From: Meghimatium bilineatum
Lineage: Eukaryota; Mollusca; Gastropoda; Stylommatophora; Philomycidae
Assembly (NCBI GenBank): GCA_034231615.1
Contig: CM067322.1
Coordinates: forward strand, 102,757,587-102,821,586
Direction: 5' to 3'
Length of the DNA stretch: 64,000 bases
Positions 4,680 through 63,515 of this stretch are shown here, piece after piece. Within the stretch, counting starts at the first letter, position 1. Every line of letters begins with the position of its first letter. A program made the translations under genes and the position numbers. The notes beneath the pieces were generated by a model, which saw only the letters and a list, made by a program, of their open reading frames with translations, did no database searches and had not been told where the DNA came from.

Positions 4680-4958
4680 TGTCATGCATGTCATAAGACT
4701 AAGAAGATTTTGGGGTGCAGTTGACTGTCCCATTACATAGAGGGTCGGAACATCCCAGAAGCCATGTTGAAGTCAGATGTGGCATGTAAAAAGGTGAAAC
4801 CCCTGAAGACGGATGTGTTGGACCATTGGCATCAATAAAGTAGCGACACAACGCGTTTCCATTCTCTGGACTACAACTGGAAATCTTGTAGGACCAATGT
4901 CCTGTTACACGAGAAATCCAGCAGGAGTTTGAGAATGAGCGCTGAAGAAGAAGAAAAG
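4680..4958 (+). mobile_element. SINE, type 2, near full length, GAA tail
   Basis: The head (CATGTCATAAGACTAAG, GACTGTCCCAT, AGAAGCCATGTTGAAG) is followed by the type 2 body (GAAGACGGATGTGTTGGACC, CATTTCCATTCTCTGGACTA in variant form, CACGAGAAATCCAGCAGGAG) and the end TTTGAGAATGAGCGCTGAAG plus a GAAGAAG tail. It is the longest copy here that joins the head to the type 2 body. A type 1 tail (GTAAACCATGACACAACACA) follows immediately at about 4,980-5,060, suggesting adjacent or dimeric insertions. Confidence 0.75.
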
Positions 4959-24146: not shown

Positions 24147-27091
24147 CAGGATGGGCAAACTACGGCCCGCAGGCAGCATGCGGCCCGCCATTGGATATTT
24201 TGCGGTCCTCAAACACATTTTAAATAAACGAACGATCGTCACAAATGATTTTTTCCCCATTAATTTTACGCAGAAATCCATTGGAATTTTAATTCGACTT
24301 TCTTATATATTAAATATACAATATTTTTCTTCCAACTTGACATCATTTAAATAGTAAACATATTGTCAATGAAATCTTACTACGTTTAATATGAGTGTTT
24401 AATATTGAGTAATCTACTATACTAGAATTGACGTAATTTGATTGGCTGAATGTTTCTCAATGATTATAAGTACTCGGACGATATAATTTTATAAAGGTTA
24501 AAAATTACCTTTCAAATTATAATTAATTATTTTTAACTTTTAAGCATTATGTCGGGATGTATGTTTAGTTTATATTAAAAAGATGTTTCATACAAAATAG
24601 AATATCGCTAAAAGCTGTTATAATTAATAATACATCGTTACAACAATAATGTATCGTGAGAAATAAACCCCCCCCCCCCATATCCTACGAATGGAATGCG
24701 GAAATACTCGATTTGCAATCATTTAAGCTGAGCAGTGCCTGGGGAATTCCTGGTGTGTTTTAATAACCCTCACGTTTGTAGTTTCTAATCACAAATTTCC
24801 GTATTTATATTGCAACCGAGTTTTCTCAATCGAAATAATTATATTCGCGCTGCCGGAAGCACATTTGTTTTTAGTTAATTTTGCAACATTTTAAGATATT
24901 TTTATTATAATGAGTGCATCCAAAAAAGGTAAGATTGAAGACGAGTGTCGGGTTTTCAAAGACGAATGGATTACCAAATATTGTTTTATGCAAGTTGGCA
25001 ACAAATCTGTTTGCTTGCTGTGTCACGAATCAGTGGCTGTTTTTAAAGAATATAACTTAAAAAGACATTACCACACAAAACATCCCAATTTCTGACACAA
25101 TCTAACATCTGAAGAAAGGAAAAGAAAATGCATGGAGTTGGTAAAAAGTCTGGAGAAACAACAAACTGTGTTTACAAAACAGTCTTTAATTCACGATACC
25201 GCAACAGAGAACAGTTTGGTGTTCACAAAATTGTGAAATACAACAAGCCATTTTCTGATGGTGAATTTATTAAGGAATGTTTACTAGATGCAACAAACAT
25301 TCTGTGTCCAGAACATAACAACAAATTTGACAGTATTACATTATCAAGAAGAACTGTGGTCAGACGTGTTGAAAAGATAAGTGAGATTTGCACTTCAACT
25401 TCAAGATGCAAGTAAGTATTTTTTGTGGTACTCTCTTGCATTGGACGAGAGTACTGATGTTCAGGATACTGCTCAATTATTAGTTTTTATACGTGGAATA
25501 AACAATTCTTTTAAATTCTTTGAAGAGTTACTGAGTGTTGAGTTGATCAAAGACACAACCACTGACCTCGATATATTCAATGCTGTTAGTAGCTGTATTG
25601 AAATAGCTGGGTTAATGTGGAACAAGATGGCCAGTATTACACCTGATGGTGCTCGTGCTTTAACTAGAAAAAATATAGGACTGATAAAGTTGATAAATGA
25701 TAGGATTAAGTCAGAATATCCTGACCACGTAATATTACCACTTCACTGTGTGATTCATCAGGAAAGTTTGTGTAAATCTGTTTTAAAGATTAGGCATGTT
25801 ATTGACGGAGTTGTCAGTGTCATAATCCTCATCAGATCAAGAGGACTCAATCACAGGCAGTTCAGAGCATTACTAGACGATCTAGAAAATGAACATTCTG
25901 ACGTCCTGTACCACAGTTCGATGGTTGAGTCTCAGAAAGGTTTTTAGGAGAGTATGGGATCTTAAAGAAGAAATAGTAATGTTTTTAGAGATGAAGGGCA
26001 TATAATATGACTTCAATGCTAACATTGCTGATGCAGAGTGGAAGCTTGACTTTATATTTGCCATTGAAAAAAATGGAAAAGTTAAATGAACTGAATGTTA
26101 AACTTCAGGGGAATGGTTTGTTTGCACATGAAATGTATGTTGATGTAAATTCATTTCAAGCCAAACTCTAATTTTTTCCAGGCAAGCAAGTGAAAACATG
26201 TTTTGTCACTTCCCTTTGCTGAAACAAGAAACTATTTCTGATGAAATGAGTAAAAAATTCAAAGCTCAGTTAGATGTATTAGTTAAAGAATTTGGACGAA
26301 GATTCAAAGATTTCAAGAACTTGGAGCAGCACTTCAATGTTATCAGTTACAAGTAAACTCAGTGCAGAAGCTGATAAAGCCCCAGAGCACATACAGTTGG
26401 AGTTGCTTGAATTACAAGCCAATCATTACCTAAAGGAAAAATTTAAGTCTGAATGTTTTTTGGATTTCTATGGTTTTTTGCCCGAACAATCACTCCCAAA
26501 CTTTAAAAACTTTGCAGCTAAATTTTTGTCATTATTTGGATCTACATATATTTGTGAACGAACAGGCATTTTCTTGCTTAAAAATCAACAAATCTAAGAA
26601 TATGTCTTTATTATCTGATTGCAACTTAAATGTAGTCATGCAAATTTCTACAAGTAAACTTGTTCCAGATTTCAAAGGAATTATAAAATCTTACAAGCAA
26701 TTACATACATCCCATTATAAATTAATAATATCAATAAAGTTGTAACTGTTGTGACTGTATGTGTATGGTGTTTTTTTAAATCTTCATTAAAAATATTAAT
26801 ATGAACCCATATTGTAACTGTATGCAACATAATATTTTTCAAATATTGTTAAAATATTTGCAAAACCTTTTATCCATATTAGAAAATATACTGTTATAGT
26901 GTAAGTCTGTTAGAAATGTAATTTATTTCAAAAGTTATCGACATTATGTAAAACTACCTTTCTTTACAATACAAATATTTGATTACTTACCGAGAATTTT
27001 AAACAAAAATATACATAATATTATATGTGGCCCTCCAATAGCTTTACAATTTTCAATGTGGCCCTCTGCACAAAAAGTTTGCCCACCCCTG
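24147..27091 (+). mobile_element. hAT DNA transposon, complete ends, inactive
   Basis: Terminal inverted repeats are CAGGATGGGCAAACT at the left and, read inward from the right, CAGGGGTGGGCAAACT. It is flanked by an 8-bp target-site duplication, GTCTATAG at 24139-24146 and GTCTATAC at 27092-27099, with one mismatch. Length is 2,945 bp. Inside is a broken hAT transposase (see the entry at 24910). A second copy at 38,562-41,258 is highly similar. Eight-bp duplications and CAG-type ends are diagnostic of hAT. Confidence 0.93.
24910..26735 (+). pseudogene. hAT transposase pseudogene (BED finger, DDE core, hATC)
   Basis: The start MSASKKGKIEDECRVFKDEW begins a BED-type zinc finger: CLLCHESVAVF then LKRHYHTKHPNF. 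A TGA follows at once, then the frame continues SEERKRKCMELVKSLEKQQ. The catalytic region (25,381-25,947) has SLALDESTDVQDTAQLLVFI, the conserved first acidic site, and HCVIHQESLCKSVLK. The dimerisation domain (26,500-26,735) reads FLSLFGSTYICE and STSKLVPDFKGIIKSY. Stops, frameshifts and small deletions break it in at least five places, two of them shared with the other copy. It resembles the ZBED5/GTF2IRD2-type hAT group. Confidence 0.88.
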
Positions 27092-33280: not shown

Positions 33281-33568
33281 CATGTGGTTGTGTCTGTGGG
33301 TCTCACCAATAGCCCACTAGACAAACCACCCATGCGACAGAAAACCTTAGTAGATGACATGCCGTTATATTGAGACTCTTTTGTGGAAGCGTTGTAGCAT
33401 GTCATCTATACAATTATAGACACCTTCTGAGTAGAAGACTCCTTCAATAAGCATTGTACTAAGCTGAAAGCTGAAGTTCCCTGGGTATGAAAGAAAGCTA
33501 AGAAAAACCACTCTGCTGCACATATGAGTAAGAATTAATCGCTCGCAATTCCTGGGGTTCTCAAACAA
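33281..33568 (+). repeat. Dispersed repeat R, about 285 bp, copy 1
   Basis: Shares GTCTGTGGGTCTCACCAATG, ACAGAAATCCTTAGTAGATG, ACAATTATA...CCCTCTGAGTAGAAG and TCCTGGGTATGAAAGAAAGC-type blocks with 53,146-53,432 and, inverted, 63,252-63,515. It can form a hairpin: TAGATGACATGC at 33351-33362 pairs with GCATGTCATCTA at 33397-33408. No coding capacity is seen. It is likely a SINE or MITE family that I do not recognise. Confidence 0.8.
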
Positions 33569-33684
33569 ACAAACATCGAGAAAAGATATGTGGTCACGGT
33601 CACCATATAACATTATATTATTCAAATGTTGGACACATGCAGTAGAAATTCAATAGAAGTTGACATCGCCAGATCAAATAGCTT

Positions 33685-38445: not shown

Positions 38446-41258
<2,813 letters not shown>

Positions 41259-42486: not shown

Positions 42487-45400
42487 GTATGAACTCATAG
42501 CACCCATATGTTGTGTTGTGTACTAATATATGTTGTGTTGTATAGTATACAAATCTACTGTGTTTAGTTTACCATAGGATTTGCCCATATGGCAATGAGT
42601 GCCTAGAATTCTAGTTCAGGGAGCAAAGAATAGGACCATTGTCTTCTTTCCAGGCATCTCGTAAGAGGCGATCAAGAAAAGTTATGGGATAAGCTGACAA
42701 CCTGTCACCTGTGACACATGCTGACAACCTGTCACCTGTGATACATGCTGACAACCCATCACCTGTGATACATGCTGATGACATGTGACACATGCTGACA
42801 ACCTGCGACACATGCTGACAACCCATCACCTGTGATACATGCTGATGACATGTGACACATGCTGACAACCCATCACCTGTGACACATGCTGACAACCCAT
42901 CACCTGTTAACAAACCAAATTTTGTATCAATTTTTTACTTTTGTCTTCTATCAAATAATTCCCATGGATGATCAAGTGATGCAGGCCAGTGGAGATTGCA
43001 GCATTGTTCTATTGTGACGACTCCTAGGTGACAGGAAAGGCTAAAAATGCCATCACTGTGTGGATGGGTCAACAAATCTGAAGAATGATGATGCAGAAGT
43101 GTGCACTGTTTTTCTGATGAGATGTGGTGACCCAGAAATACGGGTGCACTGGAATGTTGCCTTTTTTGGGACTAAACCATCCCCTTTCTCTTTGCGATAA
43201 CCATATATATATATATATGAGTCCCAGTGACAACTGAGAAGAACATGTACTTTTGTGTGAAGGGTTATGAACTGTCAAGAGCTACCTGCTCACTGCTAAA
43301 GCAATTATATCATTATCACCTTAGGTATATAAATCTATGACTCAATTCTGGTACAATTTTTCAGGGAGCTGGCTGTAAGATATCCTCTAGGTGATCTGCA
43401 ACACTTGAAAAGAGTTCGACCACAAACAGGAAAAGGTAATCAATATCTAGTTATGTAACAGTCACTGAATACAGATGTGTTAGGCCATTGGTACACATAA
43501 AACAGCAAAATAATGCATTTCAATTCTCTGGACTACATTCTGCTGGAAATATTTTCGGATCATTGTCCTGCTGACAGCGAGATCCAGCGGGAGTTTGAGA
43601 ATGAATGCTGAAGAAGTTAGGTAACAATTAACATGATGTTTGTAGATTAGGGTTATTTAGGATACCACTTCTTCTCCTTTCCTTCTCAAACTACTGCAGA
43701 TTAGCAGGATTTAGTCCAGAGAACGGAATGAGCTATGTCAGGGTTTCTCATGTACTGCATCATGTCCTCTTGTACTGCATGATGTCCTCTTGTACTGCAT
43801 CATGTCCTCTTGTATTGGATCATGTCCTCTATAAAATGTCCTCTTGTATTGCATCATGTCCTCTTGTACTGCATCATGTTCTCATGACAACATGACCACA
43901 GATTCGTAATGCAAAAGAAGGTAGTGAACTGATAAATTTTAATTATCAATTTTGTAAGTCAAACTCTACTCATTATTTCTCACTGCTCTTCTACTAGATG
44001 GGGTTCTACAGATTGTGCTCTACAAACCACCGTCTGAAAGCTGTGATGCTGGGTCAGGTAACGGGTACTGTAATGATGTCCATGGCATTGAAGGTCTGGG
44101 GTCACCATATCTAGTAAAAGTACCTGTGACTCAACCCTTGACTAGACTTCAGTACAATCAGGCATCACAATTTTGGCCAGTCAATTTTCATGAAAGCAAA
44201 GAGTGAGATTGTGAATTTTTCTTTTTGCTTATCTAACTTAAGTAAACTTGATTATAAATCTGAACATAAAATTTATGTAAACTTTATAAAGTATTTGGGA
44301 ATTTGTTTATACTCGTGAAATTGGTTGTAACATTCATTTATTTGTACACTTAACAAATGAGTTGGGTGTCAGCTGAAGCTTCCGCCCGTCTCCAAGTTAT
44401 CATATATTATGTCTACTTTCTCCAAGTTATCATATATTATATCTACTTTCTCCAAGTTATCATATATTATATCTACTTTCTCCAAGTTATCATATATTAT
44501 ATCTACTTTCTCCAAGTTATCATATGGTATATCTACTTTCTCCAAGTTATCATATATTATATCTACTTCTCCAAGTTATCATATATTATATCTACTTCTC
44601 CAAGTTATCATATATTATATCTACTTTCTCCAAGTTATCATATATTATATCTACTTTCTCCAAGTTATCATATATTATATCTACTTTCTCCAAGTTATCA
44701 TATGGTATATCTACTTTCGGCGCAAATTTGATTTCGTCCACCGTTGTGACATTTGCAGTGTTAGATAAGTTGCATAAAATTATAGATTTTTGTAAATGGG
44801 GGTTAAAAGGATTAGAATTAGTTTATAGTTTTTTTAGGAGGGAGAAGGGTTAGAATCAGTGTTTAGATTTTTAAAAATTGTGAATTTAAAAAGGCATGAC
44901 TCGATATGATTTTTATAGCACAACGGTGGACGCAATCAAATTTTTACCCTACTTTCTTCAAGTTATCATATATTATATCTACTTTCTCCAAGTTATCATA
45001 TATTATATCTACTTTCTTCAAGTTATCATATATTATATCTACTTCTCCAAGTTATCATATATTATATCTACTTTCTCCAAGTTATCATATATTATATCTA
45101 CTTTCTTCAAGTTATCATATATTATATCTACTTCTCCAAGTTATCATATATTATATCTACTTCTCCAAGTTATCATATATTATATCTACTTTCTTCTAGT
45201 TATCATATATTATATCTACTTTCTTCAAGTTATCATATATTATATCTACTTTTTCCAAGTTATCATATATTATATCTACTTTCTCCAAGTTATCATATAT
45301 TATATCTACTTCTCCAAGTTATCATATGGTGTATCTACTTTCTTCTAGTTATCATATGATATATCTGTCTCCAAGTTATCATATATTATATCTACTTTCT

Positions 45401-48400
45401 CCAAGTTATCATATGGTATATCTACTTTCTCCAAGTTATATGGTATATCTACTTTCTCCAAGTTATCATATATTATATCTACTGTCTCCAAGTTATCATA
45501 TATTATATCTACTTTCTCCAAGTTATCATATATTATATCTACTTTCTCCAAGTTATCATATATTATATCTACTTTCTCCAAGTTATCATATATTATATCT
45601 ACTTTCTCCAAGTTATCATATGGTATATCTACTTTCGGCGCAAATTTGATTTCGTCCACCGTTGTGACATTTATAGTGTTAGATAAGTTGCATAAAATTA
45701 TAGATTTGTGTAAATGGGGGTTAAAAGGATTAGAATTAGTTTATAGTTTTTTTAGGAGGGAGAAGGGTTAGAATCAGTGTTTAGATTTTTAAAAATTGTG
45801 AATTTAAAAAGGCATGACTCGATATGATTTTATAGCACAACGGTGGACGCAATCAAATTTTTACCCTACTTTCTTCAAGTTATCATATATTATATCTACT
45901 TTCTCCAAGTTATCATATATTATATCTACTTTCTTCAAGTTATCATATATTATATCCACTTTCTTCAAATTATCATATATTAATCTACTTCTCCAAGTTA
46001 TCATATATTATATCTACTTCTCCAAGTTATCATATATTATATCTACTTTCTTCAAGTTATCATATATTATATCTACTTTCTTCAAGTTATCATATATTAT
46101 ATCTACTTTCTTCAAGTTATCATATATTATGTCTACTTTCTCCAAGTTATCATATATTATATCTACTTCTCCAAGTTATCATATATTATATCTACTTCTC
46201 CAAGTTATCATATATTATATCTACTTTCTTCTAGGTATCATTTATTATATCTACTTTCTTCAAGTTATCATATATTATATCTACTTTCTCCAAGTTATCA
46301 TATATTATATCTACTTTCTCCAAGTTATCATATATTATATCTACTTTTTCCAAATTATCATATGGTATATCTACTTTCTCCAAGTTATCATATATTATAT
46401 CTACTTTCTCCAAGTTATCATATATTATATCTACTTTCTCCAAGTTATCATATATTATATCTACTTCTCCAAGTTATCATATGGTATATCTACTTTCTTC
46501 TAGTTATCATATGATATATCTGTCTCCAAGTTATCATATATTATATCTACTTTCTCCAAGTTATCATATGGTATATCTACTGTCTCCAAGTTATCATATA
46601 TTATATCTACTGTCTCCAAGTTATCATATATTATATCTACTGTCTCCAAGTTATCATATATTATATCTACTGTCTCCAAGTTATCATATATTATATCTAC
46701 TGTCTCCAAGTTATCATATATTATATCTACTGTCTCCAAGTTATCATATATTATATCTACTTTCTCCAAGTTATCATATATTATATCTACTGTCTCCAAG
46801 TTATAATATATTATATCTACTTTCTCCAAGTTATCATATGATATATCTACTGTCCTGGACATTCTGTTGTTCACCAGTAATGAGAAAGCGAACAGACTTG
46901 TATTCAAATATCTCAAATCTGTGAAATGATGATGTACAAGGAGGATGTAGCTGAATGTAGAAAGTACAATAGATGACACATCAAGGCTTCAATCAACAGA
47001 ATTTATTTATTTGCTGTTAGTTAATGGTATCATAAGAGTGGGAATCTGAGGGAATGGTGTCGTAAGAATGGTAACTTGAGAGAATGGTATTGTAAGAATG
47101 GGAACTTGAGGGAATGGTATTGTAAGAATGGGAACTTGAGAGAATGGTATTGTAAGAATGGGAACTTGAGAGAATGGTATCGTAAGAATGGGAACTTGAG
47201 AGAATGGTATCGTAAGAATGGGAACTTGAGAGAATGGTATCGTAAGAATGGGAACTTGAGAGAATGGTATTGTAAGAATGGGAACTTGAGAGAATGGTAT
47301 CGTAAGAATGGGAACTTGAGAGAATGGTATCGTAAGAATGGGAACTTGAGAGAATGGTATCGTAAGAATGGGAACTTGAGGGAATGGTGTCGTAAGAATG
47401 GGAACTTGAGAGAATGGTATCGTAAGAATGGGAACTTGAGAGAATGGTATTGTAAGAATGGGAACTTGAGAGAATGGTATCGTAAGAATGGGAACTTGAG
47501 AGAATGGTATCGTAAGAATGGGAACTTGAGGGAATGGTGTCGTAAGAATGGGAACTTGAGAGAATGGTATCGTAAGAATGGGAACTTGAGAGAATGGTGT
47601 CGTAAGAATGTGAACTTGAGAGAATGGTATCGTAAGATACCTGAGGGACATAAAAAGGAGTTTTTTTTAAACCACAGAACGAAACTATGAACATGCATAA
47701 CCTTGTACATTTACTGGAGGTGGCTATGTACAGAGTCATCAGTAGAAATTCTATTAATAATGATAATTCTACTGACACCATTTTCCCCCCGATTGCATGT
47801 GTTTCACTAGCCCTCATATCTTTAGCACGTTGGGCTTTTCCCCAACATTGAGCATTTATCTCTGTATCAATTTGATTGTTCCCCAACGCTTAACCAAGTT
47901 TTTATAATGGGGTTTGACTGTATACATATGATATCAGTATATATTTTAATTCTCTCTGGCAGTATTGAAGTCATGCAGTTATGTGAACTATTGTTGTCAA
48001 TAGTGGTCAACATTGTCACCACTGATTGGTTGTAGACTGTCATGTGATTGCATGTCTGCATACAAAATGGTGGAACATACTTTCAAGATAAACATCCCTT
48101 GTAAGTTGGAGTATTATTCTCAAGACACTGCACACAGCTGAGAGTTGGAGTATTCTGGGTACAGCTGAGTGTTGGAGTATTCTGTGTACAGTTGAGTGTT
48201 GGAGTATTCTGTGTACAGTTGAGTGTTGGAGTATTCTGTGTACAGTTGAGAGTTGGAGTATTCTGGGTACAGCTGAGAGTTGGAGTATTCTGGGTACAGC
48301 TGAGTGTTGGAGTATTCTGTGTACAGTTGAGTGTTGGAGTATTCTGTGTACAGTTGAGTGTTGGAGTATTCTGTGTACAGTTGAGAGTTGGAGTATTCTG

Positions 48401-51400
48401 GGTACAGCTGAGAGTTGGAGTATTCTGGGTACAGCTGAGAGTTGGAGTATTCTGTGTACAGCTGAGAGTTGGAGTATTCTGTGTACAGCTGAGAGTTGGA
48501 GTATTCTGGGTACAGCTGAGAGTTGGAGTATTCTGTGTACAGCTGAGAGTTGGAGTATTCTGGGTACAGCTGAGAGTTGGAGTATTCTGGGTACAGCTGA
48601 GAGTTGGAGTATTCTGTGTACAGCTGAGAGTTGGAGTATTCTGGGTACAGCTGAGAGTTGGAGTATTCTGTGTACAGCTGAGAGTTGGAGTATTCTGGGT
48701 ACAGCTGAGAGTTGGAGTATTCTGTGTACAGCTGAGAGTTGGAGTATTCTGGGTACAGCTGAGAGTTGGAGTATTCTGTGTACAGCTGAGTGTTGGAGTA
48801 TTCTGTGTACAGTTGAGTGTTGGAGTATTCTGGGTACAGCTGAGAGTTGGAGTATTCTGGGTACAGCTGAGAGTTGGAGTATTCTGAGTACAGCTGAGAG
48901 TTGGAGTATTCTGGGTACAGCTGAGAGTTGGAGTATTCTGGGTACAGCTGAGAGTTGGAGTATTCTGTGTACAGCTGAGAGTTGGAGTATTCTGGGTACA
49001 GCTGAGTGTTAGTGTTTTAAAAAAAGCTCTGGCGAAACACACATTGTTTATAGGAAATAAGAGCTTCATCAACAGCAATTCTGGAGATATCCACCTATAA
49101 CTCATCAGTGTCATAGGGGTACCACATCAACTCACAGAGTCCTCCAGCGATTTCTATCTTCAGCGATGAGTGATAAAATAAACTCTGACCTGTCCAGTCC
49201 TTGATGTTGCCTGTCCATAACTTTCTTTGTCTTCTGCCTTCAACTGTTCCCTGTAGTATGTGTTTTACAAGGAATTATGGTTAGCATAACATACTGATTC
49301 TGGGGATGAAAACATTGTAATTCTCAATGTAACATTTGCTCCAGATTTAAAAGAAATGATTGTTCTGTTTATGATTTCTGGACTTTTTATATTCTTTCTT
49401 TCATTCCAGGATTATAGCTCTGTTGTCTGGACAATATTTCAATGACAGTCAGATTGACGACATTGATACTTTTATGAGGCAAGCTGTCAGACTTGCTCAA
49501 ATTGCTAAAGGCAAAGGACAGGTATTATATTATTCATCTTACTGACAGAGTGTGTCACACCTGAAACTGGACAAACTTTTAGTTTTTAGGAGATATCAAT
49601 AAACCAGAGGTGGGCGTGTTCACTGTTCACGCCCACTGTCAATTCAATTGCAATTAGAAAATTCAAGGGAAATAAGAGAAACCCTTCAATTGTCCCCTGG
49701 TGAAATCAGGGGAGGCAAGCCAGAAACTTGGCAGGTAGACATCATCTAGTACCATTTCTGCAACAAAGGTTGGCTGCAACAGATCTCAACATCCCCTGCC
49801 TCTTGTTTTGGTGATGCACTCTGCTAGACTGTACCCTGTCCATCTTGTGATGTTATTCTCCCACACGTATTGCGTATCGCTGTCTACCTCGTGCTCGTTT
49901 CCCTTTGACTTTACCTCCAAGTAAGGTCTTCAATAAGGTGTCATTTCTTTTAATGTGTCCAAAATATTTTATTTGTCTAATCTTGATTTCTCTTAGTAAT
50001 TCTTTTTTCATATTAAGTGTTTTTAGAACCTCTTAACTTTGTTTAGTTCCTTCTCTTGTGGCAACGAATACAGTGTATAGTATAATAACGTTAAATGCAC
50101 ACACAGTTTCGCAATAGCATTTCACTCAACCAACAAAATATATTTCACTTTCAAACTGATCACAATGATTGCAGAATATTTTGCTTTATGATTTTTATTT
50201 AAAACAAAATTAAATTCCGTATATTGTCATTTCTAATATATAATAATTCCTCCTTATTTGTCAATGGTTCTGATATAGGTTTGCTGATAGATTTTTTAAA
50301 ACTAAAGTCATGTTTTATCATGGGAGAAGTGGCACTGTCTGATGTTAACTTTCTGAATTCAGAAACTGTACATGTTGTAACTGCAGGATATATGCTAGAT
50401 ATAGCAGAATCGTGTATGTTATTGGACGTTGAAGGTCTAAAATATGTGGAGGGTGTGCTGGTATAACTACATTGTGGATATGCAGGTGTTGTAAATGTGG
50501 AATGTGTGCTGTTATAGTGAAGATGTGCAAATGCAGGTGTAAATATGGAAGGTGTGCTGGTATAGCTACATTGTGGATATGCAGTTGTTGCAAATGTGGA
50601 AAATATTCCATTATTATATTGAAGACAACGGCTAGCTGTGGGTACTGTTAAATTTGTTGGATTGTTTGTTATTACTATTGGTGAGTTGTGGAGACAATCT
50701 TGCTGTCACTGGCATTAGAATATCTTCCTCTGTTTCTGTAGCAGGAAATAACACAGACACATCATGATCATTATCGGAATTATCAAAAACTCTCTTTCTT
50801 TTTATGCTGCCATGGTTCATACTTTGATGATGACTACACACGGAACATTCTAAAACAGTTAGGTTAGGATTAAAATCCATCCAGATGTGGGCACTGTTAG
50901 TAGCTATCAATTTGGCTCGAGCTAGAGATTTACTATCCTTGTTGATTTTGAGTTTATGATTTCGCATTACACACTTGACACACAATGTGGTTGAATGTTT
51001 TGTTTCACTATCGTCCATGATATGTATCCCATAAATACTAGCCAGGTCACTTTGATATAAGCTACAGGACCGTGGTTTCTTCTGCATCCTTTTATCTTTC
51101 TTAGATAATGTTCTTCCTACACAAATTCTGCACAAATCATTCAAAAATCGCATGTGTAGTGAACTGCAGTGATCCATCCTGTTTTGAAATAAATTTAAAA
51201 ATATTATTAACACATTTTCACATTAGAAACGTATAACATATACTTATTACAATAGTAAATTACTTTTCTGTGTATGTGTAGCATGCAACGAACTTATTTG
51301 AACGGTTATGGGGATCCAACCGCGATTGATAACTATCACACAGAACAAGTTCGTAGCGTTAATGCTACACAAAGAATGAATCTTTTACATGATCTAATTG

Positions 51401-54400
51401 CGCAATGTAACTAATTTTGATCATATTTGCACAAGTAAAATGAGATCTAACTAGATATACGTGCTAAACTAGTGTTTGATGGTGGCATAATAGGTTTATT
51501 TTGGACTTAATATTTGCCAACCACGAATTGAAAAATTATCATGAAGACAAGTTCGTAGCGTTAATGCTACACAAAGAATGAATCTTTTACATGATCTAAT
51601 TGCGCAATGTAACTAATTTTGATCATATTTGCACAAGTAAAATGAGATCTAACTAGATATACATGCTAAACTAGTGTTTGATGGTGTCATAATAGGTTTA
51701 TTTTGGACTTAACATTTGCCGACAACCAATTGAAAAATTATCATGAAGACACGTTCGTAACGTTAATGCTACACAAAGAATGAATCTTTTACATGATCTA
51801 ATTGCGCAATGTAACTAATTTCGATGATATTTGCACACGTAAAATGAGATCTAACTAGATATACATGCTAAACTAGTGTTTGATCGTGGCATAATAGGTT
51901 TATTTTGCAAATTCTTATGGTAAACGATGATCTAACAAATTTGACACTGTATGTAAAGTAATGATATTAGGCCTACTAAATTAACATGAAGAATAACGAA
52001 ATTGTCTTACCTGTATAAATATTGAATGTGCACTGGTCAAAAACAATGACAACCAAATAGGACTTGTACAAAAATATGACGATGGAAAATGTTGATTTGT
52101 GCTTGCAAATGCACAAACTCTGGCTGCTGTATAAAATTTGCAAAATTGAGAAACGGTATCTTTGAACCAGAAGCGAAATCCAAGCCTCCACGCGAATTAT
52201 TTCATTCAGCGCTGGGTAATAAATATGTCAGGTCTGTTACACCCCTTCAGGACTACAATAGCTGAAATGCCTCGTGTGTGGCCGAACTAAAAGTCAACAT
52301 TTTTAGTACAGAAAAACAGGTGTGGTGTGCGTATTGAAACCACCCTGCCTCTCTAAGATATCCTTATTGTATAATTTTGTTCTACCTTTCTAGGATACTC
52401 TCATTAGGTGGTCCTTATTTTTTCCTGATATCTACTAGTGATATTTATATTTCCTCAAACATCTCATTTCACATACTGTGATATTTTTGGCTAGTGCTTT
52501 TGTCAAGGTCCATGTTTGACATTGGTAATGCAGAGTTGGTATAAAAATACTTTTTTATAAGTTGTCATTTTGTCTCAATGCAGGTTGGTGGGTGTTTTGA
52601 GTATTGACAACAGTTGGTAAGTCACAACTTTGGCTTTCTGATATCATTTTTCGATCTCTCTGTTGGAAAACCCCAGAGTTATTTCAAGACAGAAATCCTA
52701 CTTATTATAATGATAGACGTGGATTTACATTAATTTCTATATACAGTAGAAATCTGATTATCCAGATCCCAATTAACTGAATACCCAATTATCCTAATCA
52801 AAATTTGGTGAAATAATTTTTGAACAAGAACGTTAGTGGACGCAGTAGAGAGGTCTAGGGGCAGTGTGCATGTGACGTTACTATGTAGACTATTTGCAAT
52901 ACATAGATGCCTACATATTACTGTACTTTTATCAATAAAATTCTGTTCATTTCAATGTATTATTGTATGTATGTACACTGTTTTTCTTCATTCCTGCCCA
53001 ATAGCCAATTATTGTGAATTTTTGATTATCCGAATCGGCCCGATCTCCAATTAATTTGGATAATCAGATTTCTACTGTATATCACAATCTCACCTTAAAA
53101 AAATTCATCCAATTTCTTCATGGTTAATACTCATAAATGAACACATGGTTGCGTCTGTGGGTCTCACCAATGGCCCACTAGAAAAACTACCCATGCAACA
53201 GAAATCCTTAGTAGATGACATGCCGTTATATTGAGACTCTCTTATAGAAGCTTTGTAGCATGTCATCTATACAATTATATACCCCCTCTGAGTAGAAGGC
53301 TCCTTCAATAGGCATTGCACTAATCCAAAAGCTAAAGTCTCCTGGGTATGAAAGAAAGCTCAGAAAACCACCCCACTGCACGTAGGAAGTAAGAGCTAAT
53401 TGCTCCCAATTCCTGGGGTTCTCCTACAAACTCATAAACGATGTCAATCGTCTGCATTTCATGGGTGCCACCATTTTGGAATAACGCATGATTCTGAATT
53501 AGCTATTTTTAGTAACACAATCACTACAGTTGTCGTATTTCTGAAGTATCATAATGGTTTCAATGATCATTGAAGTTGGTCACCAAGGATATATTATGGA
53601 AATTTGATGACCATTAGTAAAGTAATAAATATCTACACTATTCAAGTCACTGTTATTGAATATATTTTCTGCCAAAGACGGATGTGTCAGGCCATGGACG
53701 CAAATAAAATGGTGACACAATGCATTTCCATTCTCTGGACTACATCCTGCTGTAATTCTAATAAGACCATGGTCCTGCTGCAAGAGAGATCCAGCAGGAG
53801 TTTGAGAATGAATGCTGAAGAAGAAGAAAAAATTTTTTACAAGTTTTGTTTCAACAATTCGTGTTTCTCATGTGTTCTACCTGCATATCACAAATTAAGT
53901 ACTGTAATTTAAACTTTGAGGTCCTGTGTGCACATTTTAAAAGAATTCTTCATTTTAAAAATAAATAAAGGGTGTTAAAAGCTTTTTAACAAACTCTGAA
54001 TCATCTGGAGATTGAAGATCGCAAGTAAACACATAAAACTGCGACTATTCAACGCAAATGTGGTTCCATTGTTAACATATGGATGTAAAAGTTGGAAGAC
54101 TACCACAATAATGGATAAGAAGTCAGTTGCCTTCGAGAATAGATGCCTCAGAAAGATCACAAATACTAATTGGAAAGACTTCAAATCAAATGACATATTA
54201 AGAGAGGAGACAAAACAAGAATATGTGACGAACATCATCAGAAAACGCTGCTGGACATACAACGACCACATACTTAGAATGCAGGAAGACAGAATACCAC
54301 GATAGTCTTCATGTGGACACCAAATGGGAAAAGAAAACATGGAAGACCAAAAAACATTGATCAGAAGAACATTTTTGAATGAATTAAAATCAACAGGCAT

Positions 54401-57400
54401 AAATGCACAAGACCTGCAATCCTTGGCAACTGACTGACAGGCATGGAGAACTATGACATCCGCCCTATGTGCCAAACTTGGCAAAAGAGGAACTGACTGA
54501 CTATTAAAAGCTGCTACACATATAAAACAAAACAATTTGTACAAATATCAATAACGCCTACAAAGGAAATATCACAAGATACTGGGAGGAAGCCTTGCCA
54601 GTTCTGCAGTGTTCATGGTCTTCCATGGATATGTTCCTGTGTAAGAAAGAGACTTAAGCACCCATTGTTTTATTTTAATATGAAGAAAATATTTCAGACT
54701 AAATTAAATTTAATTCCTACTAAAAATTAGTTGCAGATCGGAGCTATTATTGTTGACCCAGTAACTAAGAGTGTGATAGCAGAGGCATATGACCTTCGTC
54801 AGGGGGGCTACGCTCTTCAACATGCAGTAATGGTGGCCATTGACCTAGTAGCCCACTCACAAGGAGGAGGCATGTGGCAGTTTGATGGTTTGTTCTCACT
54901 GTCATTCTGTTATATGCTGATAGATACATACATTCCTGCTACTTCCGTCTGTTCTGATACATACATTCCTGCTACTTCCGTCTGTTCTGATACATACATT
55001 CCTGCTACTTCCGTCTGTTCTGATACATACATTCCTGCTACTTCCGTCTGTTCTGATACATACATTCCTGCTACTTCCGTCTGTTCTGATACATACATTC
55101 CTGCTACTTCCGTCTGTTCTGATACATACATTCCTGCTACTTCCGTCTATGCGGATACTTATATTCCTGCTACTTCCGTCTATGCGGATACTTATATTCC
55201 TGCTACTTCCGTCTATGCGGATACTTATATTCCTGCTACTTCCGTCTATGCGGATACTTATATTCCTGTTACTTCTGTCTATGCGGATACTTATATTCCT
55301 GTTACTTCAATTTTGCTGATATGTATTCCTGTTACTTCAGTCTGTGTTGATAGATACATACACTCTTGTTACTTGTCTTCTTCTTCTTCAGCGTACATTC
55401 TCAAACTCCTGCTGAATTCTCTTGTAGCAGGACATGTCCTACTAGATTTCCAGCAGAATGTAGTCCAGATAATGGAAATGCGTTGTGTTTCCGTTTTATT
55501 TGCACCAATGACCGACTTTCCTGTATAGGGGACATACAAATTTAGCAGATAAGTCCGTACTAGGAAACAGAATATAATAACTGAGAATAAAAAAGAGAAT
55601 GAAGGGGCAACAATCTATTCTGAGGGCGATTAGCCTTTTATTTGATGTAGAATGATATCAGTCTATACTCAGCTGCCAGTTTTGTACACCCTGACTTTGA
55701 CAAGGTATATTTCAAGATGCTTTCTAGTCAACCCACAGTGTGTTTAGTTGCTACCTCACAATCACTCTACTGGTCATCATTGTTGTGAAAAATGATGTAT
55801 TTACATGATTACTATCCACAGAATGGTTTATCCACACAAAAAATTTATTACTTTCGTATATAAAACCACAAGTTACATGCCTGTTATCCAGGAAAGTACC
55901 CTTGAATCTATGTGATATTGCTGACATGTCTTTGACTTCAACCGACAATACTTGTTATTTTATTTCCCATTACTTCACACTATATAAACTGCATACTTAG
56001 TTATCCTGTTAGTTGAGTCTGAGTTATGACTGTGAGTTATCATTAGTCCACACAGGACAAGTACGTATGTGCTCCGATCCCCGTCTCAGTAAATCTATCA
56101 GTGTAGTGACTGACAGTTCCAGTTCGAAGCTGATTTATCAGTCTCTTCGTATATTTATTAGTTTCTCTTTACATGTTGTTCCGATCTTTACACCAATCAC
56201 GCACAGTATTAAGAGCGACCATGAGAAAATCTTCACAACGGTTCAAGATTTCTAAATGCATTAACTATGTCAGATAATCACCTGAACAGAATCCAGGGTG
56301 CCGGCTGTGCACTCATACATATGAAACTGTTGACAACCACCTTTTTGAATGTCCAGCGCTGGATGACATCAGGAAAATTCTTCTCCCTCCAGGGCCAGAT
56401 AAATGGAACACATTATATGGAACAAAACAACAGCTCACAAACACATGCATATATCACACAATGGCATTGGGTCAAAGGGCATGAGCCCATGGACAGCTGG
56501 ATCAGCAACCAACCAACCATGTCAGATTGGTTCATTGATGTACCTATTGACACTGTGGCCATGCTTGCCAGTATATGGGCTCGCTTTTTACACAGAGCAC
56601 CCACATTTCCTGGCACGAATATAAAGCTCATCTTTCTGGTCATAAATTGTGTCAATAACTCCACCCATTGATGGCGGATGACTCCCTTCGGTCACGTTGA
56701 GCATGCTTATATCTTCTGCTTCTTTCGGTCACCTTGAGCATACTTATATCTTAAATTCGTCAGATATGAACATATTCCCATTGCATGGGTTGCTGTGGTA
56801 CGTATCTTGGCTGGTTGCCTCTGTTTTCAGCACCTGTACTTGCTAGGTCTTGCTCAATTTTAGGAGGTGTTGGCCAGTTTTAGTTTTCATCCTTTGTTGG
56901 CTGATCTAAACCCCATCTCAGCAGCTAGAATTTGAACCTGATGGGGAGTGAGTCACTAAGTAAGCATGCGAGTCACTAAGTAAGCATGCATGACAATAGT
57001 TTGTTTATTTGAGAACCTGATGGGATGTGAGTCATTAAGTATGCATGACAATAGTTTGTTTATTTGAGAACCCCAAGAGTTGTGAGCGATTAGTAATCTG
57101 GATGAGCGATTTCCTGCAGTGTTTTTGTCAATAACTCTTGTTATTGAAAACAATAGTCATATCCACTATTTGGTCAATAGTAGACCAACATGGATGCCAC
57201 CAAATAATTTCAGACTTTCATGTGATTGGATATCTTCATACAAAATGGCTGAACATACCTTCTACACACACACACACACACCTAGACCTACTATGAGTAG
57301 AAGATTTCTTTTCCAAACATTGATAACTTCTGAGAGCTGCAATCTTCTGGGTGTTAGAAATATCTGGAAAATCCCTCAATGCAAAAATGAAACAACCTTC

Positions 57401-62965: not shown

Positions 62966-63251
62966 TCAGGTGACATATTCTTTCCAGAATGTAGTCTTCC
63001 CTATGTACCTGTTGAATTCTCCCCGGTCTTCAGCAAGTTGCCCCGCCTCTTTTAGTGACATGTACAGGCATTCCTATATGCATGTTTTGCTTCAATTTAT
63101 TTCAAACACAGAAAAGGAAGAAATTAATGTTGAATTGTTACAATAAATGACAATGTTGGAATCCTATAGTTGACTGTTCCTTTATCAGAGTCATAAATGT
63201 GGAATTGTGAATTCTATTGTCTTGCACCAGGTGAATAATGGTTGATTGAAT

Positions 63252-63515
63252 GATAACCCCAGGAATTGCAAGCAATTACCTCTTACTTCCTATGTGCAAT
63301 GGGATAGTTTTTCAGAGCTTTCTTTCATACCCAGGAGACTTCAGCTTTTGGCTTAATGCAATGCCTATTGACAGAGCCTTCTACTCAGAGGGGGTCTATA
63401 ATTGTATAGACATGCTACAAAGCTTCTATAAGAGAGCCTATGTCATCTACTAAGGATTTCTGTTTCATGAGTGGTTTGTCTAGTGGGTCATTGGTGAGAA
63501 CCATAGATGCAACTG
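63252..63515 (-). repeat. Dispersed repeat R, copy 3, minus strand
   Basis: The plus strand reads CCCAGGAATTGCAAGCAATT, TTTCTTTCATACCCAGGAGA, CTACTCAGAGGGGGTCTATA and TCATCTACTAAGGATTTCTG, the inverse of copies 1 and 2. The loop between the hairpin arms is shorter here. Confidence 0.82.

Follow-up and report, generated by a model that had tools for sequence, protein, structure and literature searches.

A 181-codon open reading frame resembling the RAG1 N-terminal zinc region, antisense within an ADAT3 intron of Meghimatium bilineatum

Within the 64-kb stretch of Meghimatium bilineatum DNA analyzed here as a whole, referred to below as the window, two plus-strand exons at about 49410 to 49521 and at 54737 to 54880 are assigned to ADAT3. 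Their boundaries were placed by eye, the start of the second exon being a likely acceptor and its end approximate. The joined exon pieces, which amount to 88 residues, match ADAT3 chains in PDB at 1.3e-11, and the intron between them is about 5.2 kb long. This intron contains an open reading frame of 181 codons on the minus strand, at 50632 to 51177 (stop codon counted in the coordinates), which encodes a putative zinc domain of the RAG1-N-terminal-like, or Chapa, type. Since the ADAT3 exons lie on the plus strand on either side, the frame is antisense in the ADAT3 intron, and the nested arrangement proposed in a preliminary description of this DNA is thus backed by the PDB match of the flanking exons. 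No tRNA genes were found in the window.

On the minus strand, no stop codon occurs from 51222 down to the one at 50632, and the first ATG of the frame, at 51177, yields a protein of 181 residues. The context of this ATG, with A at -3 and G at +4, favors translation. Second-order Markov sequences of 5.2 kb each were generated to match the composition of the surrounding intron. A frame of at least 196 codons from stop to stop arose in 4 of 1000 of them and one of at least 168 codons in 24 of 1000; given the rarity of the former, chance was rejected as the source of the 181-codon open frame. The zinc-domain part of the protein covers about residues 2 to 133 and is followed by an acidic, Ser/Asn-rich tail. 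Its motifs start with CRIC at residue 16 and DLASIYGI at residue 44, followed by CVKCVMRNHK at residue 66, the arrangement W99-x(11)-C111-x2-C114, and KRKR at residue 126. The order CRIC, DLxxxxGI, CxxCxxxxHK, W-x(11)-CxxC, KRKR given for the 181-residue protein in the preliminary description is therefore present in full, with the spacing as stated there.

A second open frame of 168 codons (50199 to 50705, minus strand) lies in the +1 register with respect to the first and overlaps its end by 74 nt. The last base of its stop codon is overlapped by AATAAA, a poly(A)-signal-like hexamer at 50194 to 50199 on the same strand. The product of the second frame would be rich in Ser, Thr, Pro, and Tyr, and imperfect repeat copies occur in the frame at a spacing of 99 nt. 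Past the end of the first frame the G content is only 11%, and the third frame is likewise open over 100 codons in this stretch. The 72-nt repeat copies in the second frame differ by 4, 3, and 4 mismatches at the three codon positions, and there is therefore no sign of protein-level constraint on it. The second frame may be the frame-shifted C-terminal tail of the 181-codon ORF, or its openness could be a chance property of a G-poor stretch. The ORF had been described as unbroken, which holds for the 181-codon frame but is uncertain for the whole gene, given that the second frame begins before the first has ended.

Upstream of the ORF, a candidate acceptor reads tttcaaaacag/GATGG on the minus strand, with 51178 as the first base of the coding exon and the ATG beginning one base on. 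A candidate donor, CAG/GTAAGA, with 52010 as the first intron base, would delimit with it a putative intron of 832 nt in the 5' untranslated region (51179 to 52010, minus strand), preceded by a putative untranslated exon at 52011 to 52195, the 5' limit of which is that drawn in the preliminary description. When the minus strand of the window was scored with donor and acceptor matrices, which are approximations, this donor obtained the top score. By the same approximate scoring the acceptor is ordinary, since 221 minus-strand positions, itself included, score at least as high, and a higher-scoring acceptor is found at 51364, within a 202-nt tandem repeat of which the putative intron carries three copies (51345 to 51950). 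None of the frames of the upstream exon (52195 to 52011) has an ATG, and a stop codon a short way ahead of the junction closes the one that leads into the ORF; the exon would therefore be 5' untranslated. Both the proper acceptor and the consensus donor 832 bases upstream that had been claimed thus exist and yield the 832-nt intron, with an acceptor that is ordinary by score.

The resemblance of the 181-aa protein to RAG1 was evaluated against a human RAG1 region which, as a control, matched Pfam RAG1_imp_bd (PF12560) at 5e-90. In BLASTP, taken as a single comparison, the protein aligned with this region at an E value of 0.003 over 49 residues. When the protein was aligned jointly with the human and mouse RAG1 sequences, the identity was 21 to 25% and the alignment was collinear from CRIC to KRK. 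Shared columns hold CRIC, CxxC, H, W, CxxC, and KRK. The DL pair is shifted by one residue relative to the DL of RAG1, and RAG1 has no counterpart of the cysteines at residues 4 and 38. Smith-Waterman scores against the RAG1 N-terminal region reached z 5.8 to 5.9 over full shuffles, with none of 2000 shuffles as good, and z 3.5 to 3.7 when all Cys, Trp, and His residues were held fixed, with 5 of 2000 and 6 of 2000 as good. Reversed RAG1, used as a control, gave z 0.9 to 1.8 and -0.6 to 0.5, respectively. Another run, with 3000 shuffles per matrix, gave one shuffle as good with BLOSUM62 and none with BLOSUM45.

Ranked by RAG1-likeness, the 181-codon ORF came first among the 201 low-repeat ORFs of at least 60 aa in the window, with z 6.2 (60 shuffles per ORF). 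Next came an ORF at 50348 to 50647 on the minus strand (z 5.1, raw score 41), which is rich in His, Pro, and Leu and lies in the adjoining repeat, and composition alone is therefore able to raise z. A loosened form of the ordered motif pattern was matched by the protein and by none of 300000 shuffles, in a post hoc comparison in which the first version of the pattern had missed by one spacing residue.

Profile and structure searches gave less. The Pfam search of the 181-aa protein returned no family at an E value of 10 or below, hence no zinc-domain family, and the search with the RAG1 N-terminal/importin-binding profile, a check that the preliminary description had proposed, found no match to RAG1_imp_bd (PF12560) even at E 10. 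A profile built from two RAG1 sequences gave 8.4 bits for the query; 42 of 20000 shuffles scored at least as high, up to 17.1. Among the sequences of solved structures, five distinct ones were retrieved up to E 10, none of them a RAG protein, and the best was contactin-2 at 0.45. The structure predicted from the single sequence has a mean pLDDT of 38.8, and the model is unusable. The claimed likeness to the RAG1 N-terminal region is thus upheld by the pairwise statistics but not by the Pfam profile, and the two-sequence profile supports it modestly. Taken as sequence comparisons, these results suggest that the 181-aa protein is likely homologous to the RAG1 N-terminal zinc region, short of proof.

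Two other identities were considered for the domain. Against the RAG1 RING/ZDD, the protein scored z 0.8 to 1.5 over full shuffles and 0.6 to 1.2 with Cys, Trp, and His fixed, and this identity was rejected. Together with the finding of no RAG1 family in 80 ORFs of the window, these scores agree with the preliminary description, according to which the gene has neither a RING nor a transposase core. The ZAD of grauzone (PDB 1pzw) has a CRxC ... CxxC frame in common with the 181-aa protein and scored z 3.5 to 4.1 over full shuffles, with 18 of 2000 or 4 of 2000 reaching the score. With Cys, Trp, and His fixed, however, the ZAD became ordinary (z 0.9 to 1.3; 393 of 2000 and 234 of 2000 shuffles as good) where RAG1 retained z 3.5 to 3.7, and a ZAD was rejected as well; it is also not known to have the second part (H, W...CxxC) that the 181-aa protein has.

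The surroundings of the gene were inspected for traces of a mobile element. The search for terminal inverted repeats (TIRs) that had likewise been proposed gave none above chance between 49.0 to 50.6 kb and 51.2 to 54.7 kb, the best matches being of 11 nt at E 1.1, and a nucleotide search at E 1e-3 detected no second copy of the gene elsewhere in the 64 kb. The heptamers CACAGTG/CACTGTG and CACTATG/CATAGTG do not occur between 49 and 54.7 kb, an interval in which CACAATG or its complement is present five times, as is usual for such short words. The 80 ORFs scanned with Pfam at E 0.01 (79 of the 100 listed low-repeat ORFs of at least 73 aa, plus one more) contain no RAG1 family, RING, or transposase family. 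The families that they do contain are RNase_H (three members) and RVT_1, LrgA, DUF4371, dCMP_cyt_deam_1, and DUF6451 (one each). A Chapaev core would escape such a scan because, to our knowledge, Pfam holds no Chapaev model. Relatives were also sought in collections that are not meant for animal genomes. Three scans of viral contigs gave 3, 12, and 47 pattern-matching stretches and prokaryote genome contigs gave 75, none of which was confirmed, and plasmids and phages gave no match up to E 1; given the purpose of these collections, the absence says little.

The reading that we prefer, with the balance about even, is that the 181-codon ORF is a stand-alone gene for a Chapa-type zinc protein, lying antisense in the ADAT3 intron and descended from a transposable element akin to N-RAG-TP or Chapaev. 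In its favor are the collinear alignment with RAG1, the above-shuffle pairwise scores, the first rank in the window, and the published precedents given below; the missing match to RAG1_imp_bd, the modest two-sequence profile score, the shifted DL pair and unpaired cysteines, and the lack of TIRs around the gene and of a second copy in the window speak against it. On the basis of the motifs and of RAG1 biology, the cysteines and the histidine of the motifs would bind zinc, KRKR would serve as a nuclear localisation or importin-binding signal, and the protein would have no enzymatic activity of its own. Within its element, it may have aided in trans a transposase made elsewhere, through protein or chromatin contacts and nuclear import. 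The RAG1 N-terminal region lies outside the core that is sufficient for recombination, and the helper role suggested here is by analogy with that region.

The first alternative, which we regard as doubtful, is a domesticated host gene, in which selection would have retained the lone domain in the role of a nuclear zinc adaptor, with the mobile ends long lost and a spliced 5' untranslated exon in front. The open frame, of a length matched in only 4 of 1000 random introns, is what such a gene would present, and so are the best donor of the minus strand joined to an upstream exon without ATG, the favorable context of the start codon, and the lack of TIRs around the gene and of a second copy in the window. 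However, a relatively young transposon copy would look alike, the acceptor at 51178 is ordinary, and the overlapping +1 frame may signal that the original C terminus has been lost. That the ORF is an expressed and selected stand-alone host gene carrying the RAG1 N-terminal zinc domain by itself is, in our estimation, quite unlikely.

Unlikely, too, is that the ORF is the inactive remnant of a longer gene for a transposase of the Chapaev, Chapaev3, or RAG1-like kind, of which only the N-terminal exon survives and the second frame is the frame-shifted continuation. The part of PMC4411706 on Chapa domains reports them in transposases of Chapaev and of the RAG-like kind, and the second frame, with its 74-nt overlap in the +1 register and its end at AATAAA, is placed as such a continuation would be. 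Against this, no RAG1 family was found in the 80 ORFs, a weak argument in view of the Chapaev model missing from Pfam as far as we know, and the second frame has the low G content, the openness of the third frame beside it, and the even spread of repeat mismatches over codon positions described above. Convergence or chance in a cysteine-rich protein, whose domain would then belong to another zinc family such as ZAD, is very improbable: the weak absolute scores, the lack of a Pfam match, the shuffles that equal the small RAG1 profile score, and the above-shuffle score of the grauzone ZAD with its shared CRxC...CxxC speak for it, but with Cys, Trp, and His fixed the ZAD falls to the ordinary and RAG1 does not, no Pfam zinc-domain family is matched at E 10, and we know of no ZAD counterpart for the HK after the second CxxC or for the W...CxxC part.

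The origin of the RAG1 N-terminal region is debated, and the region is held either to have been present in the ancestral transposon or to have come later from another element, for instance N-RAG-TP. Stand-alone examples supply data for this debate if they are intact and common to related species, and the ORF described here contributes a further probable example together with a gene model open to testing. If the host-gene reading were true, the domain would have had a cellular role, or would have been domesticated, independently of the transposase core.

Proteins of this kind have precedents. Panchin & Moroz reportedly described N-RAG-TP of the sea slug Aplysia californica in 2008. The pertinent passages of PMC8355894 present N-RAG-TP as an Aplysia transposon encoding only a RAG1-N-terminal-like sequence, and passages of PMC2996935 and PMC13337447 mention it too. 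In the portion of PMC4411706 devoted to it, Chapa domain is the name given to the RAG1 N-terminal region; it is described as a complex zinc finger that occurs in the transposases of Chapaev, Chapaev3, and TransibSU, and is argued to have joined the core in a common ancestor. According to the relevant section of PMC7204232, most of the RAG1-like proteins newly identified there have the three zinc motifs of the N terminus, and that of PMC9885083 reports two RAG1-like genes in sea urchin, one of them without the N-terminal part. Because N-RAG-TP and Chapa-domain transposases have been published, a stand-alone protein with a RAG1 N terminus is a kind already known, of which the 181-codon ORF is probably another example, and to call it an under-described system, as had been done, is an overstatement on the evidence of these passages. 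The literature was covered narrowly, and further stand-alone cases may be in print.

Compared by description only with N-RAG-TP as these excerpts portray it, the 181-codon ORF likewise encodes a RAG1-N-terminal-like sequence alone, and here no TIRs were found around it. With Chapaev, Chapaev3, and TransibSU, again by description and within the same part of PMC4411706, it has in common the zinc-domain region found at the RAG1 N terminus; in those transposases, however, the Chapa domain is fused to a transposase core, whereas none was found with the 181-codon ORF. The non-core N-terminal region of vertebrate RAG1 (PF12560) has CRIC, DL..(Y/F).I, CxxCx4H(K/R), W..CxxC, and KRK in the same order as the 181-aa protein, which differs from it by a shorter spacing from CRIC to DL, a longer one from H to W, and the absence of both RING and core.

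According to our analysis, the gene, the 181-codon open frame resembling the RAG1 N-terminal region that lies antisense within an ADAT3 intron, has a putative 5' intron that carries a tandem repeat at 51345-51950, in which a 202-nt unit is present in three copies, the other two sharing 97% and 84% identity with the first. Approximately 0.5 kb past the putative upstream exon of the gene lies a 344-nt element (52739-53082) with terminal inverted repeats of 29 nt each, which are 97% complementary and in whose arms TA precedes CAGTAGAAATCTGATTATCC; the element resembles a pogo/Tigger-type MITE.

Two dispersed repeats follow. The one at 53146-53431 (~285 nt) has a copy at 33285-33570 (87%) and another on the opposite strand at 63246-63513 (85%). 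The one at 53675-53830 (~150 nt), which is SINE-like in size, has copies in the window near 4806, 18051, 23422, 43468, and 55503.

The ADAT3 exons are themselves accompanied by four minisatellite arrays (44389-49010 and 54923-55359) with units of 27 to 33 nt and up to 83 copies. Three of them (44389-49010) are located upstream of the exon at 49.4 kb, and the 33-nt-unit array (54923-55359) is directly 3' of the exon at 54.7 kb, whose frame stays open through it.

Among the 80 window ORFs scanned against Pfam (E value of 0.01), one matched DUF4371. Broken transposase-like ORFs form two similar sets, at 25113-26742 and 39290-40952, which have LALDESTDVQDTAQLLVFIRGINNSFK in common and are presumably hAT-like.
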